Assembly (NCBI GenBank): GCA_017517305.1 | Contig: JAFWZV010000009.1 | Location: 62,001-126,000, forward strand | DNA from: Lachnospiraceae bacterium | Lineage (GTDB): Bacteria; Bacillota; Clostridia; Lachnospirales; Lachnospiraceae | DNA: 64,000 nucleotides | Direction of reading: 5' to 3' | In this document: piece by piece, positions 8,924-14,777 of the stretch | Numbering within the stretch: the first letter of the stretch is position 1 | Layout: every line of letters starts with the position of its first letter | The notes under the pieces: generated by a model | Told to the model about the DNA's origin: nothing | Databases searched by the model: none | What the model saw: only the letters and a program-made list of their open reading frames with translations | Program-made: the position numbers and the translations under genes

Positions 8924-11230
8924 TTATTTTACTTCACTTATTTTCTTCTTAGCACAATCTAGCTCTACCCGCTTCATCATAAGCACTGTTTTAAATAACT
9001 TTTCACCACAGCCTAGGGCCGCCGGAATATTAAGCTCCATACATCGTTTTGCTATTCTTGAATCCTTGGTATCCTTCTTGGTTATTATTCCCTTAATATC
9101 CTTAGTAAAGATCCAGTCATAAGCCAAAGTAACCTTTGAGAGTAACACAATCTTTCCTGTCACATCCACATCATGGCCTTCGTCATAATAGGCAATATCT
9201 CCAACAACACACTTGTCTGTCAGATAGTCTGGTATCTCCTCATCAATATCTATTACATCCAAATCTCCCACATTAATAATAACATCCGGAAGCACCAGAT
9301 AAGAATAGGCATGATACATATTTCTTCTGGCCTCTATGGTCATAACATAGGAGTCTCTACTATGATAGCTATCTAAATCCTGAATTTCCAGATAGGACAT
9401 ATCCTCCTTATCTATACCTATCAACTCTCCTAGCCTTGCAATTATATCCAGAAGAAGACCTATAGATTTTGCATACTCAAATCTATAACTATCAGCCAGT
9501 TCACTGGCTCCATTAATAAAGCCAATAAGCTTATCCACATCAACCTTAAGCTCTGAGTCTTCAAGAGCCTTAGCAATTATATCTCTATCCAATGATTTGG
9601 CTATCTTCTTTTCTTTTGACACTTCATAATCTCGAACTGTCTCTAAATTACTGTATAATTTTCTGTAGCTGTGAGCCCTTATATCACATATGCTAATTCG
9701 AAGATGACCATATTTTCCATCAAATTCCTCCCAGGAAAGCTTTCCACTGGTATAATCCTCAAAGTCTCTCTTAAAACAAGAGGACACAGTATCAAGAGAT
9801 AATCTAAAGGCATCAATATCTTCTCTCTTTAGATATCCTTCCTTAACCAAGGAATTGCAAAAACCTTTAGCAATGAACTCGCATCTTTCCTGTCTGGTAT
9901 ATCCTGGGGAACAGTAATTTCTCATGGACTCTATAAGCTCAGCAATATAATTATATAACTTTAAGCTGTTCGTCTCCTCCATAGGCTTAAGCTCTCTTAC
10001 CCTTCTTCTGGTAATCATAAGCTTAGTCAAAGCCTCTGTGTCACTGTCATGTAGTTCCTCATAATTATTAATAATATTCTCTGTTAAGTCTAATAAGCTT
10101 TTTCCGAAGCTATTTATCTCCTCTTCTGAGAATCCATAATTACCTAATTTTTTTAATCTTCTGGCTGTAGATAAATTATACGAGCCAAATACAATAGCAC
10201 TATCTACTTTTCTGTGTCTTCTCCTATTGTCAGTAAGCACATTCTGATAATAATTAAATATTTTATCTCTTAATATTCTATCCATACCTGCTGGTATCAG
10301 CGCATTAAATAGACAATCAATAGATACATATGGTTTGTTACCAACTCTATGCATAAGACTTGAGTCTACACCCTCATAGCCTAACTGTTTTATGGTTTCT
10401 CCCCATATTCCAGAGGTAAGAATACCCTTAAACAAAGAATAATCCAGAGGTCTTGGTTCTGAACCAATCATCTTAGATGGATTCCAATATGCCTGATGAG
10501 ACATAATATGATGGGTATCTAAATAATTACACTTAGCAAATGCTTTCGTATCAGAAAACTCTCTATCCGTCATAAGAATATGACTACCCACTAATCTTTC
10601 CATAGGCTTTAGCTGATAAACTATAATCTTGTTATCTGAATCCACGCCAAATTCTATGCTAAATTCCTGTATGTCTAAAGCCTTCTCCAAATCTCTAGCT
10701 GCAAATATCAGATTCATAAAGGACTCATCCAAAAATTCTCTGGATACATTATTAGCAATCCATTTTGTTCTTGATTTTGCCTTAATATTATCTTCTCGCA
10801 TCTCATCAATATAGTTATAAACAACCATATAGTAAGGTCTTCCATAATAAATATCCCTAGTGTAACACACTCCACACATAACAAGGTTATCATACATTCT
10901 GTGGATAATTATCTCACTGTCACTTCTACCCTCACATTCTAAAGCAACATTCCTTATGGCTTCAAAAACCGCTTCCTTATCAGATGCTTCAATGTTCTCA
11001 AATCCGCTAAATATACCTGTTCCTGCAGATACACCTTCCTCACTGGCTATATAATTTCTCCTCACTATGAGTGGACCTTCTGAGAAGGTTCTCTTAATAT
11101 TACCCCACACAGCCTCTTTGTATAAATTAAAATCCGAAGCACTTATCTCAATTATATCTTCAAGCTTTATTCTATTGTCATCATCAAGGTTTTTCTCCTC
11201 TAACCCTGTCAATATATCAGCTTTATTCAT
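8924..11230 (-). CDS. Divergent PEP synthase / PPDK-like protein lacking the phosphohistidine
   Basis: This 768-aa protein resembles PEP synthase and rifampicin phosphotransferase but is stripped down. Near the N-terminus LIVRRNYIASEEGVSAG matches the ATP-grasp VRSSA...EDxxxxSxAG element, while the usual GGKxxxL segment before it is missing. Around residues 190-215, IEFGVDSDNKIIVYQLKP matches the end of the ATP-binding domain, with QxRP changed to QLKP. A helical middle of about 400 residues is unrecognised. The C-terminal 90 residues look like the PEP-utiliser swivel domain (GIITKKDTKDSRIAKR, then NIPAALGCG), but the GGxxSHxAI phosphohistidine site reads KKDTKDSRIA. Family resemblance is visible; activity is doubtful. 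It lies between a HAD phosphatase gene and a hydrolase gene. Confidence 0.65.
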   Translation of the reverse strand: MNKADILTGLEEKNLDDDNRIKLEDIIEISASDFNLYKEAVWGNIKRTFSEGPLIVRRNYIASEEGVSAGTGIFSGFENIEASDKEAVFEAIRNVALECEGRSDSEIIIHRMYDNLVMCGVCYTRDIYYGRPYYMVVYNYIDEMREDNIKAKSRTKWIANNVSREFLDESFMNLIFAARDLEKALDIQEFSIEFGVDSDNKIIVYQLKPMERLVGSHILMTDREFSDTKAFAKCNYLDTHHIMSHQAYWNPSKMIGSEPRPLDYSLFKGILTSGIWGETIKQLGYEGVDSSLMHRVGNKPYVSIDCLFNALIPAGMDRILRDKIFNYYQNVLTDNRRRHRKVDSAIVFGSYNLSTARRLKKLGNYGFSEEEINSFGKSLLDLTENIINNYEELHDSDTEALTKLMITRRRVRELKPMEETNSLKLYNYIAELIESMRNYCSPGYTRQERCEFIAKGFCNSLVKEGYLKREDIDAFRLSLDTVSSCFKRDFEDYTSGKLSWEEFDGKYGHLRISICDIRAHSYRKLYSNLETVRDYEVSKEKKIAKSLDRDIIAKALEDSELKVDVDKLIGFINGASELADSYRFEYAKSIGLLLDIIARLGELIGIDKEDMSYLEIQDLDSYHSRDSYVMTIEARRNMYHAYSYLVLPDVIINVGDLDVIDIDEEIPDYLTDKCVVGDIAYYDEGHDVDVTGKIVLLSKVTLAYDWIFTKDIKGIITKKDTKDSRIAKRCMELNIPAALGCGEKLFKTVLMMKRVELDCAKKKISEVK

Positions 11231-11244
11231 ACCAAACTCCGTTC

Positions 11245-12057
11245 TTACAAAATAAATTCCTTAATCACCTGAACTATTCCATCCTCATCACAGGAAGCAG
11301 TAATATAATCAGCATTATCCTTTACTATCTGCTGGGCATTATCCATGGCAACACCAACTCCACCATACTGTACCATGGTTAAATCATTGAAACCATCACC
11401 ACAACAAATTGTATCCTCCTGCTTCATACCCAATATTCCCACTAATTTATTGATAGATTCCGCCTTGTCCACACCCTTAATTGTAATCTCTATAAAATAT
11501 GGTTCTGAACGAAAAACATTCAAATCCGGAGCCAAAAGATTAGCTAACTCTTCTTCATATATAGCCGCTTTATCAGGTGGCGCAGTTAACAAGCACTTTG
11601 TCATATCAAAATCAACTTCATCTAAGAACTTATCAACCCTATGAATAACCATAGAGTTAAGTCTTGCTTCATACTCCATATATTCATCTATCTCAGTTCC
11701 AGTAAGCACTACGTCTTCCTTATAAGTAACCATACCAATACCATGAGCCACAGCATAATCATATATAGTCTTAAGATATGAGTTTGGAATGGCTTTCTGA
11801 AATACAGTCTCACCAGTCTTGCAGTTTATAACCTTACCACCATTAAAGGACAACACATACCCACCGTATTCGTTAAGCTTGAGCTGATTGGCATAAGCCT
11901 TCATCCCTGGATAGGGTCTTCCTGACGCCAATGCGACTATATGTCCTAGCTCCTGAATCTTAAGCAAATGCTCTAGCGTTGCCGGAGTAATCTCCTTCTT
12001 GGAATTTACCAATGTTCCATCTATATCAAGCACCAATAATTTCTTATTTTCCGTCAT
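11245..12057 (-). CDS. Cof-type HAD-IIB family hydrolase
   Basis: A 270-aa HAD phosphatase of the Cof/YidA group, which dephosphorylates small sugar phosphates, nucleotides or cofactors. Motif I is DIDGTLVNS with the nucleophile Asp at residue 11. Motif II is ASGRPY. The type IIB cap lies in the middle, and motif IV is CCGDGFNDLTM near the C-terminus, followed by GVAMDNAQ. The ATG follows GAGG. It is the first gene of a three-gene operon with a PEP-synthase-like protein and an alpha/beta hydrolase, with gaps of 14 and 11 bases. Substrate cannot be inferred from sequence. Confidence 0.88.
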   Translation of the reverse strand: MTENKKLLVLDIDGTLVNSKKEITPATLEHLLKIQELGHIVALASGRPYPGMKAYANQLKLNEYGGYVLSFNGGKVINCKTGETVFQKAIPNSYLKTIYDYAVAHGIGMVTYKEDVVLTGTEIDEYMEYEARLNSMVIHRVDKFLDEVDFDMTKCLLTAPPDKAAIYEEELANLLAPDLNVFRSEPYFIEITIKGVDKAESINKLVGILGMKQEDTICCGDGFNDLTMVQYGGVGVAMDNAQQIVKDNADYITASCDEDGIVQVIKEFIL

Positions 12058-12110
12058 AATAAAACCTCATATTTCATATTTTAGTCCGTCATTTTATAAT
12101 AACATTTTTT

Positions 12111-12139: not shown

Positions 12140-12176
12140 AATTTGAATATTTTTGAAATTACTAAAGGTGGCAAAA

Positions 12177-12596
12177 ATGGAGATAATCATACATATAGAA
12201 TCAAAAAAATTAGATAAAAATCTACAGCTTGCAATTAATGAATATATCAAAAGAACCTCACCTTATTGCAGGGTTAATATAAAGCTTTACAAAAGCTTTG
12301 ATAAGCTTACAACAAAATCAGGTTCTAAGGTATTTAAGGTTATTGCTGGTGATGGTTCCCCTACTTCTGAGAGGCTATGTCAAATCATCCAAAATCTCAA
12401 TTTAAACGGATTTTCTTGTATTGAATTTGTGATTACAGATTGCAACAAGGATACTATATACCCTGCTATATTTGATAGCTTAGAGACTTTTAACCTGTCT
12501 TCATTTTCTATGAGTATGGATTTAACAACCGTAGTACTTACTGAGCAAATATACAGAGCTTACACAATTATGAACAATATTACATACCACAAATAA
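12177..12596 (+). CDS. RlmH-like SPOUT methyltransferase paralog with degenerate SAM knot
   Basis: This 139-aa protein aligns end to end with RlmH, the SPOUT methyltransferase of 23S rRNA pseudouridine 1915. AINEYIKRTSPYCRV matches the RlmH N-terminal helix. LTTVVLTEQIYRAYTI and the terminal YHK match its C-terminus. The SAM-binding knot has decayed: the usual IGGxxG is VITDCNKD (residues 85-92), and MTFPHQ has become MSMDL with loss of Pro-His-Gln. The ATG after AAAGGTGG was chosen over an upstream TTG. It faces a second RlmH gene that has the knot but lacks this tail. It could be a non-catalytic partner, a decaying copy, or an RNA-binding derivative. Confidence 0.72.
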   Translation: MEIIIHIESKKLDKNLQLAINEYIKRTSPYCRVNIKLYKSFDKLTTKSGSKVFKVIAGDGSPTSERLCQIIQNLNLNGFSCIEFVITDCNKDTIYPAIFDSLETFNLSSFSMSMDLTTVVLTEQIYRAYTIMNNITYHK

Positions 12597-12626
12597 AAGC
12601 CATTGAATTACTATTCAACGGCTTTT
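12595..12626. terminator. Bidirectional terminator between the two RlmH-family genes
   Basis: AAAAGCCATTGAAT and ATTCAACGGCTTTT form a 14-bp stem with one mismatch and a four-base loop, with A/T runs on both sides. It contains part of the stop codon of the plus-strand gene and the last five codons of the minus-strand rlmH, so it shapes the RlmH C-terminus. Confidence 0.8.
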
Positions 12627-13069
12627 AATATTTGTTCTGCCAGCATAACTCTCATCAGCTGATGTGGAAATGTCATATTAGAAAAGCTAAGCTTATAATC
12701 AGCCCTATCAACCACTCGTTTATCCAAACCTAAAGAGCCACCAATTATAAATATTACGTTATCACACTGCTTTGTCTTAGCTTTATCTAATTGTTTCTTC
12801 ATAAGTGTCAGGTCTGTACTTTTTCCTTCTATACATAAGGCAATCACATAATCATTCCCATTGATATGTTCCAAAAGCTTATCACCTTCTACCGCCTTAA
12901 TCTTATCAATAACTGTCTGACTAGGGTTAGATGAAATGCTCTCATCAGTAAGCTCCACCACTTGAAAATGTACTTTTTTGTTAATCTGACTATAATATTC
13001 TTCTAGCTTCTTCCTATAGAATTCTTCTTTTATTTTGCCTAAAACCAATAATTTAAAACTAAAATTCAT
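12611..13069 (-). CDS. rlmH: 23S rRNA (pseudouridine-1915-N3) methyltransferase RlmH, C-terminally shortened
   Basis: RlmH methylates pseudouridine 1915 in helix 69 of assembled 70S ribosomes, acting as a homodimer. The SAM-binding elements are intact: ALCIEGK, FIIGGSLGLDKRVV (residues 108-120), and KLSFSNMTFPHQLMRVML. The protein then ends EQILKAVE, about nine residues short of the family's usual EQIYRAxxI...YHK ending. The missing tail falls in the shared terminator hairpin. The ATG gives 152 aa; a GTG four codons upstream is an alternative and both have weak ribosome sites. The convergent neighbour keeps exactly the missing tail. Family assignment is firm; whether it is active alone is not. 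Confidence 0.9.
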   Translation of the reverse strand: MNFSFKLLVLGKIKEEFYRKKLEEYYSQINKKVHFQVVELTDESISSNPSQTVIDKIKAVEGDKLLEHINGNDYVIALCIEGKSTDLTLMKKQLDKAKTKQCDNVIFIIGGSLGLDKRVVDRADYKLSFSNMTFPHQLMRVMLAEQILKAVE

Positions 13070-13185
13070 AATTTTTCCCACAATTCTTTACACAAACTTA
13101 TTTTCTTGTTTAAACTTTGTTCATAAATTCGGTTTATAATCAAAGTATAGTTTTTTTCATAAATCCTCTCTTTAAATTATAACAG

Positions 13186-13232: not shown

Positions 13233-14777
13233 TTAAACATTGCCGTTCTTTACATCCTCAAATTCCTGAATAATTTCATCACTTACCTTAGGAGTAATAA
13301 GGCTAACTAAAATGATAAATGCTAAGCTTATAAAGAATCCTACAAGCAATGAATAAATTCCTGTGTGTGCTCCAAGAGTCTGCATAACGCCGTCCACGTT
13401 AACAAGCTTAATATAATCCCAGATAATAACTGTAAGACCTCCACTAAGCATACCTGCCATAGCACCGTAAAGATTTATTCTCTTCCAGTACAGCGACAAA
13501 AGTATAGTTGGTCCAAAGGCTGCACCAAGTCCTGCCCATGCATTAGATACAAGACCCATAATACTTGAATTAGGATTCCATGCAATAGCAAACGCTATTA
13601 CAGCAACAATTACAACTGTAAATCTGCTGACAAGCATAACCTTCTTCTCATCCATCTTCTTAAACATTACACCACTGAATAAATCCTTGGCAACTGATGA
13701 AGATGATACCAAAAGCTGTGAGTCTGCTGTAGACATTATGGCCGCAAGTATTCCACACAGGAATATACCACCTATAAATGGAATTCTAATATCATCCATA
13801 AACATTTTCTTAATCATCTCAATAAATACATTCTCATACTCTGCATTCTCAGTTCCAAGAATCTGTGGGAAGAGATACGCTCTACCGACAACACCTATAA
13901 CACATGCAACAGCAAGAGAAAGAAGTACCCAAACGATAGCAACCTTCTTAGACTTACCAAGCTCCTTCTCATCCTTAACAGCCATAAATCTTATGAGAAT
14001 GTGTGGCATACCACAATATCCAAGACCCCAAGCAAGCTGTGATAATATACTTACTGCAGAGATAGGCTCACCACCCTCATTAAATATATTAAGGAATTCA
14101 CTTACGCTAACATCAAGCCCGCTATCTCTAAGGTTTGGTACAATGTTACCTGTCCCCATAAGTACTACTGCAATTATAGGTACAGCAAGAATTGCAATAA
14201 GCATCATAAGTCCCTGAATAAAGTCTGTCTCACATACTGCAAGGAAGCCTCCAAAAAATGTGTACAGAAGAATTACACCCGCACCAACCATAAGAGCTAC
14301 ATGGTAGTCCATGCCAGTAATAGATACAAAAAGCTTACCACCGGCCGCAAAGGATGAAGCAGTGTAAACCAAGAAGAAAATTACCATTACAACAGCTGAA
14401 ATAGCCATAAGTATTTTCTTCTCATCCTTAAATCTGTTACTGAGATACTCTGGAATTGTCATAGCATTACCAGATCTTATAGTATATCTTCTAAGTCTTC
14501 CTGATACAAATATCCAGTTAAGAACTGTACCGATAAAAAGTCCGATAGCAATCCATGCCTGATTTGTACCAAATGCGTAGATACAGCCTGGAAGTCCCAT
14601 AAGGAGCCATCCACTCATATCTGATGCCTGGGCGGAAAGGGCTGCCACCCATCCGTTAAGATTACGTCCACCAAGGAAGTAATCATCTGCATTTTTGTTC
14701 TTTTTAGCACTTGTAATACCTATAACAAGCATAATAGCCATATAGATACCAAGAGCAACTATTAACCAAGTTGTCAT
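13233..14777 (-). CDS. putP: Sodium/proline symporter
   Basis: A 514-aa solute:sodium symporter of the PutP group, importing proline with sodium. ALSAQASDMSGWLLMGLPG near residue 50 is the PutP signature of helix 2 and its sodium site. About thirteen hydrophobic helices span the protein, and it ends in a short charged tail (VKNGNV). The start overlaps the thiN stop as TAATG, so translation is coupled to a thiamine enzyme with no obvious functional link. It is the last gene before a strong terminator. Proline could serve as osmolyte or as a Stickland substrate; which cannot be told here. Confidence 0.93.
   Translation of the reverse strand: MTTWLIVALGIYMAIMLVIGITSAKKNKNADDYFLGGRNLNGWVAALSAQASDMSGWLLMGLPGCIYAFGTNQAWIAIGLFIGTVLNWIFVSGRLRRYTIRSGNAMTIPEYLSNRFKDEKKILMAISAVVMVIFFLVYTASSFAAGGKLFVSITGMDYHVALMVGAGVILLYTFFGGFLAVCETDFIQGLMMLIAILAVPIIAVVLMGTGNIVPNLRDSGLDVSVSEFLNIFNEGGEPISAVSILSQLAWGLGYCGMPHILIRFMAVKDEKELGKSKKVAIVWVLLSLAVACVIGVVGRAYLFPQILGTENAEYENVFIEMIKKMFMDDIRIPFIGGIFLCGILAAIMSTADSQLLVSSSSVAKDLFSGVMFKKMDEKKVMLVSRFTVVIVAVIAFAIAWNPNSSIMGLVSNAWAGLGAAFGPTILLSLYWKRINLYGAMAGMLSGGLTVIIWDYIKLVNVDGVMQTLGAHTGIYSLLVGFFISLAFIILVSLITPKVSDEIIQEFEDVKNGNV

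Follow-up and report, generated by a model that had tools for sequence, protein, structure and literature searches.

The window analyzed here, a stretch of 64,000 nucleotides of DNA from a Lachnospiraceae bacterium, contains two convergent genes of the RlmH family (PF02590) whose products lack different parts of the enzyme. This raises the question of whether they represent a working gene and a decaying copy of it, or two proteins that function together. In E. coli RlmH, the cofactor SAM is held by one monomer of the homodimer, and the C-terminal residues of the other monomer complete the site (Koh, 2017; PMC5430550), so that the distribution of these parts between the two genes can be compared with a known mechanism.

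Two RlmH-family genes in the window

We refer to the tail-less form, with the SAM-binding knot, as RlmH-A (A) and to the knot-less form, with the RNA-facing residues and the tail, as RlmH-B (B) (Table 1). A, read from an ATG codon (the mechanical ORF begins further out, with a GTG at position 13081), has intact IIGGSLGL and FPHQLMR motifs and ends in EQILKAVE, without the YHK tail and without equivalents of R25, R26, and R142. B reads VITDCNKD at the position of IGGSLGL, lacks FPHQ, and ends in EQIYRAYTIMNNITYHK. The SAM-binding glycine-rich bight and the TFPHQxxR motif are therefore present in A and absent in B, which has lost its SAM motifs and retains EYxKR, EQIYR, and YHK; from the set formed by the E138-R142 helix and the YHK/R tail, A retains only the E and B retains all. 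These complementary defects were noted in a preliminary description of the locus and are confirmed here, as is the good ribosome-binding site of B. The good promoter that it also assigned to B does not stand out from the background, with 7 sigma-70-like sites between positions 11900 and 13300 compared with 6.6 +/- 2.7 in shuffled sequences.

Table 1. Features of the window around the two RlmH-family genes.
Feature	Position	Strand	Remarks
RlmH-A, putative tail-less SAM/knot subunit	12611..13069	-	152 aa; PF02590 E=1.6e-39, profile 3-145 of 154
RlmH-B, putative knot-less RNA/tail subunit	12177..12596	+	139 aa; PF02590 E=8.3e-16 over profile 1-154
Intrinsic-terminator-like hairpin between the convergent A and B genes	12594..12627	-	15 pairs, T-rich tail; overlaps the last codons of A
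Ribosome-binding site of B, AGGTGG	12166..12171	+	Good; by-eye reading
Sigma-70-like promoter candidate for B, TTCATA-16-TATAAT	12073..12100	+	Density at chance level
HAD-family hydrolase adjoining B	11245..12057	-	PF08282; neighbor conserved in the genus
Sodium:solute symporter adjoining A	13233..14777	-	PF00474; conserved neighbor in the genus and some other genera

The stop codons of the two genes are 14 nt apart. Both proteins pass the Pfam gathering score of 27 bits for PF02590 (A, 135.8; B, 58.8), and both fall under the curated cut-off of 172 bits of the RlmH equivalog NF000985 (A, 152.7; B, 54.2), on which the normal RlmH of a sister species (G180) reaches 232.6 bits. If the two proteins do form one RlmH, the enzyme would probably be overlooked or misnamed by automated annotation in such bacteria. 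Apart from A and B, the genome of the window has no further PF02590 match at E<=0.001. Downstream of the HAD gene lies a minus-strand ORF of 768 aa (8924-11230) whose Pfam match to a PEP-utilising mobile domain is borderline (23.0, with the cut-off at 23.1); relatives of this ORF (~41% identity) occur near the A+B pair at two other loci (L091 and L092).

Distribution, arrangement, and evolution of the pair

A PF02590 search of 397 genomes drawn from the family gave a match in 363. Among the matches listed, a tail-less RlmH was present in 12 of the 397 genomes, with B in all 12 (translations read), although truncation of YHK alone barely lowers the Pfam score and the matches listed for the family, and for the class, may hide more tail-less genes with or without B. 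Within the genus, 30 of 37 genomes, including that of the window, carry the A+B pair (translations seen for 30/30); five of the remainder encode a single full-length RlmH, with no B even by a broad profile, and the other two, both incomplete, have neither A nor B. Four more pairs were found in other families of the order (G434, G467, G440, and G452) in a survey of 56 genomes with a B profile, 21 of which were then searched with PF02590. Across the class, where 393 genomes were surveyed and 28 followed up, at least ten pairs were identified among the matches listed (G518, G553, G563, G586, G618, G692, G728, G778, G787, and the very divergent G683). Finally, eight of 11 genomes reached by name have the pair, five of them new (G485, G486, G488, G489, and G491) and three that match previously counted genomes in coordinates and scores. 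The total comes to approximately 60 genomes with A and B across Clostridia. In the 55 pairs assembled by script, none of the A sequences ends in YHK or YHR and every B sequence ends in YHK.

The recurrence of the same two forms in approximately 60 genomes places the defects of the window genes far beyond chance. The preliminary description had proposed looking for constant co-occurrence of the two forms; within the family this was found at every listed tail-less RlmH, and in the class there are two weak exceptions, which count against an obligate pair. In one of them (G849) the contig terminates within an inserted element, short of the location that B has in a related element (G692, see below), and in the other (G751) rlmH itself is deleted past about residue 118 and B is absent. 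Conversely, B without A was seen in two genomes, which also speaks against such a pair: G635, at a contig edge, and Paenibacillus alkaliterrae, where a B-type gene (L096:4523-4924) lies beside type I restriction genes and a normal RlmH is also present.

Several other candidates were rejected. The apparent two-copy genomes G095 and G255 contain contig-edge pieces of one normal gene, G063 and G355 are likewise contig-edge cases, and G607 has one frameshifted gene. G267, G738, G811, G626, and G844 each encode a single full-length or near full-length divergent RlmH, with C-termini such as YNK (G738) and YDK (G811). The matches listed for B in plasmid and phage records were full-length RlmH relatives (match length ~465-480 nt; four partial ones from Sinorhizobium), and a scan of IMG/VR found no B. 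Two further observations concern unusual pairs: G683, a genome of 1.5 Mb, has an extremely divergent tandem A+B (L224), both far below normal RlmH scores, and the genus member G401 has a second B gene adjoining a HAD gene on a separate contig (L237).

With regard to gene arrangement, 37 of the 55 pairs are convergent, their open frames separated by 3 to 144 nt, six are tandem, and 12 lie in separate fetched loci. At 24 loci of the genus (L067-L090), a relative of the window symporter is present in 24/24 and one of the HAD gene in 21/24, and symporter relatives also flank five of the seven pairs tested in other genera. Within 1.5 kb of the normal rlmH loci of the genus, relatives of these two neighbors were found in 0/5 cases.

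Both genes are under purifying selection, as between close pairs of the genus A has a dN/dS of 0.10-0.19 and B one of 0.07-0.26, in 10 non-independent comparisons among nine genomes (dS <1.5 for both genes, from 29 pairs). Since the pair recurs and is conserved, the decay of B that the preliminary description had allowed for is not borne out. The distances of A and B correlate (r=0.82, 52 pairs, 0/2000 permutations), a result that shared ancestry alone predicts. In a tree of 120 rows and 143 columns with weak support, 45 A sequences, including that of the window, form one weakly supported group (85), and the remaining ones are scattered near normal RlmH; the tree has eight changes in all, of which the starred branches force only one, and may be compatible with a single origin of A. 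One sequence with a PYPR tail (L143) was entered in this tree as A.

Proposed division of the active site between A and B

The mechanism of E. coli RlmH provides a basis for interpreting these losses. Residues R25, R26, R142, and R154 of the second monomer have been assigned to the RNA site, Y152 and H153 are supplied by the same monomer, and mutants of E138, Y152, H153, and R154 are inactive, yet still dimerise and bind SAM (Koh, 2017; PMC5430550). In addition, the second SAM site of the homodimer was unoccupied below 500 uM SAM (Koh, 2017; PMC5430550), and according to a review, catalysis may involve just one of the cofactor sites (PMC9508554). The division between A and B matches this published composite site, with the SAM side on A and the RNA and tail side on B, except for E138, which is common to both.

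To see how the conserved residues are distributed, we aligned 112 sequences of normal RlmH with 59 of A and 60 of B. In normal RlmH, 41 columns are at least 90% conserved, and a column was counted as kept by A or B at a retention threshold of 70%. Considering all rows, 23 columns are kept by A only, 14 by B only, three by both, and one by neither; the corresponding counts are 24, 15, 2, and 0 outside the genus of the window (29 A and 29 B) and 22, 13, 5, and 1 within it. Because the knot, FPH, and tail motifs served to assign the sequences to the A, B, and normal classes, the columns of these motifs are invariant in part by construction, and the counts were also made with the class-defining columns removed: in the same sequence of categories, they are then 11/12/2/0 outside the genus (Fisher p=2e-5), 10/11/3/1 for all rows (p=1e-3), and 10/10/4/1 within the genus (p=0.004). 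If two copies had decayed independently, many doubly lost columns would be expected; the observed number is 0 or 1. Rows that were edge, deleted, frameshifted, divergent, or unclear (L035, L225, L227, L229, L230, L049, L040, L052, L185, L224, and L146) were left out of the tree and the column counts, as were contig-edge rows such as the A of L042; L143 is also absent from the column counts, and L089 (the A of G422, ending in YYC) was not counted as normal.

Among the columns that did not define the classes, E22, K25, R26, S85, Q144, Y146, R147, and I151 are invariant in 60/60 B sequences, and G9, D40, E59, L76, and G80 in 59/59 A sequences; S85, G99, and S101 are retained by B and mostly lost by A. 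Two features fit a clean division less well. E138 (E143 in the alignment) is kept in 56/59 A and 59/60 B sequences, a retention in both that such a division does not require. Moreover, many B rows have lost the hydrophobic residue at position 78, which belongs to the published interface patch; interface positions 127, 130, and 132 of B remain mostly hydrophobic.

Taken together, we consider that A and B probably (roughly 0.8) encode two different subunits of one RlmH, the 23S rRNA pseudouridine-1915 N3-methyltransferase. The obligate heterodimer with divided roles that the preliminary description put forward is strongly supported by co-occurrence, residue partition, and purifying selection on both genes, and the best reading of the data is that this heterodimer would have one composite site. 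The SAM knot would come from A; the tail (E, R, Y, H, and K) and the RNA-facing Lys-Arg would come from B. An A-B dimer would thereby contain a single complete site, with all defects collected in the other, dead site, and a complete site would be impossible in an A-A or B-B homodimer. We infer both the dimerisation of A with B and the product, m3Psi1915, from these sequence comparisons. A split, heterodimeric RlmH is thus very probably what the pair represents, a reading well supported by the genomics, and in many gut Clostridia two different proteins, each with half of the shared active site, appear to have taken the place of an enzyme of two identical halves.

An alternative is that the A-B pair forms but has a new target, or acts as a non-catalytic ribosome-assembly factor. 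This is compatible with the loss from B of parts of the RlmH core (columns 59-60 are deleted in 60/60 rows) and with the product m3Psi1915 being a predicted one. However, the A+B genomes of the family, of the genus, and of the window itself show no normal RlmH, so that methylation of Psi1915 would be lost under this explanation, and the residues retained are those that RlmH catalysis needs; we therefore regard it as improbable. A second alternative, that A alone is a working tail-less RlmH and B a decaying pseudogene of an old copy, could account for the SAM-side motifs retained in A and for the low score of B on the RlmH equivalog (54.2 against 172). It is very hard to reconcile with a dN/dS of 0.07-0.26 for B, with eight non-class-defining columns invariant in 60/60 B sequences, with the inactivity of the three tail mutants tested in E. 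coli RlmH (PMC5430550), and with the restriction of tail-less RlmH without B to G849 and G751 in the genomes examined, and we consider it highly improbable.

Returning to a heterodimeric RlmH, the RlmH/YbeA homodimer (E. coli, 5TWJ; S. aureus OrfX, 4FAK) shares with the A-B pair the PF02590 domain, the motifs, and the two-subunit composite site, and differs in that the proposed roles are here divided over two genes, neither of which has both halves. A similar division is described, in the portion of the source consulted, for the tRNA m1A58 methyltransferase Trm6-Trm61, in which one subunit binds SAM and a diverged partner that has lost SAM binding helps to form the RNA-binding region (PMC5007650); unlike A-B, this is a eukaryotic enzyme with a Rossmann fold that acts on tRNA, and that portion links it to no mobile element. 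Among SPOUT enzymes, an engineered NHR heterodimer indicates, in the excerpt used here, that one functional subunit suffices for methylation, with reduced activity (PMC4409310), but according to the same excerpt it is artificial and carries one point mutant rather than natural complementary defects. For two yeast SPOUT paralogs, formation of a heterodimer had been suspected at one time (PMC1829167). In the open-access literature searched, neither a heterodimeric nor a split RlmH came to light. If correct, our reading would make the pair a natural test of the composite-active-site model in the smallest SPOUT enzyme, in which evolution shows the residues that each half must supply, including S85, G99, and S101.

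Elements inserted at rlmH and a possible origin of the pair

SCCmec and the Enterococcus cassette chromosome are described as elements with large serine recombinases that insert into rlmH at its last codons, which the repeats at their ends include (PMC6222049; PMC10061031). In contrast, one variant of the elements found here truncates the tail and carries a putative trans-acting partner. The clearest case is G692, in which the host rlmH adjoins a trypsin-PDZ (HtrA-type) gene and terminates in RINMGER-stop. Directly 3' of rlmH lies the gene of a 704-aa large serine recombinase (PF00239, PF07508, and PF13408). After it come genes for an HTH_36-like protein, for the HsdR, HsdM, and HsdS proteins of a type I restriction system (assigned by Pfam), and for a tyrosine recombinase (PF00589), with B located beyond them. 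A stretch of 15.9 kb is enclosed by inverted repeats of the TTTACTGAATACATGACT type, with the displaced rlmH tail GEPYHK-stop at the far end.

Related structures were found in three other genomes. G849, from another family, has a GEP-stop junction of the G692 kind, with a recombinase 71% and an HsdR 98% identical to those of G692; its contig breaks off where hsdR ends, and the rest of its genome gave no B. The large serine recombinase adjoins the 3' end of rlmH in both G692 and G849, as in SCC-like elements. G563 has an NEP-stop junction and a B 93% identical to that of G692; its recombinase was not seen, the interval is partly N, and the flank of the far repeat lacks the displaced YHK tail. 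In G692 and G563, B lies 14 kb from A, within the inserted element in G692, and the neighbor of the host rlmH is a trypsin-PDZ (HtrA-type) or metallo-beta-lactamase-fold gene. Finally, G751 has a deletion scar with the element end and the displaced tail.

The reading frame at the rlmH junction is unrestored in G692 (GER-stop), G849, and G563, and restored in two genomes, G539 (L268) and G779 (L267), in which related recombinases lie right behind rlmH, the element end TATCATCGCTAA restores PYHR-stop, and B was found in 0/2. Two left-end variants of an rlmH-targeting element can thus be distinguished, one that regenerates PYHR-stop (L268 and L267) and one with an immediate stop (L264 and L266, in G692 and G849). 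At rlmH, B accompanies two of the three truncating ends (the third is unassembled beyond hsdR) and neither of the two restoring ends, an association in the predicted direction that consists of few cases and small numbers. The truncated A sequences of G692, G849, and G563 retain KRL and EQIYR, so the erosion of A seems to be subsequent to truncation.

B lies inside a mobile element in G692, and in a Paenibacillus whose RlmH is intact it adjoins restriction genes. These locations could also be explained if B, whether carried by an element or standing alone, had a separate role, such as regulation or immunity to re-insertion at rlmH, and the loss of the tail of A were tolerated. We give this explanation very little credence in view of the two tail-restoring sister elements without B and of the active-site residues, since those missing in A are kept by B and those kept by A are lost in B.

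Under the heterodimer reading, these elements suggest how the split arose. The preliminary description had taken B for the native copy and A for a later arrival, which is contradicted where the origin is visible (G692 and G563), as A is there the own rlmH of the host. Since the element in G692 truncates rlmH and carries B, the native gene is probably A, with B as the later addition, a conclusion that may extend to the window itself by analogy. A serine-recombinase element would enter the last codons of rlmH, strip YHK, and bring the B gene; the half-enzyme B would then rebuild the site in trans, turning the homodimer into a heterodimer and making the host dependent on a gene of the element. 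Decay of the element and repeated capture of B would leave a stable two-gene RlmH in many Lachnospiraceae, including the window genome. We consider this sequence of events, from tail cutting by rlmH elements through complementation in trans to the captured two-gene form, to be reasonably likely. For the window, ten proteins of the G692 element gave no match (tblastn, E<=1e-3), and its whole genome has no element end with up to three mismatches, so that the descent of its pair from an element-made split is inferred from the other genomes. If true, this would represent a route from a homodimer to an obligate heterodimer through a mobile element that disrupts a core gene and makes up for the damage in trans.

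Two further loci deserve mention. In G722 (L265), a recombinase 93% identical to that of G692 (residues 1-541 only) occurs with the truncating end at a secondary site, an ABC transporter gene by eye, away from an intact rlmH; B is absent from this genome, which is a point against the proposed element origin. In the one-contig genome G456 (L171 and L185), two rlmH copies lie 2.6 kb apart, one of them with an in-frame stop, and this arrangement may be another cassette remnant.
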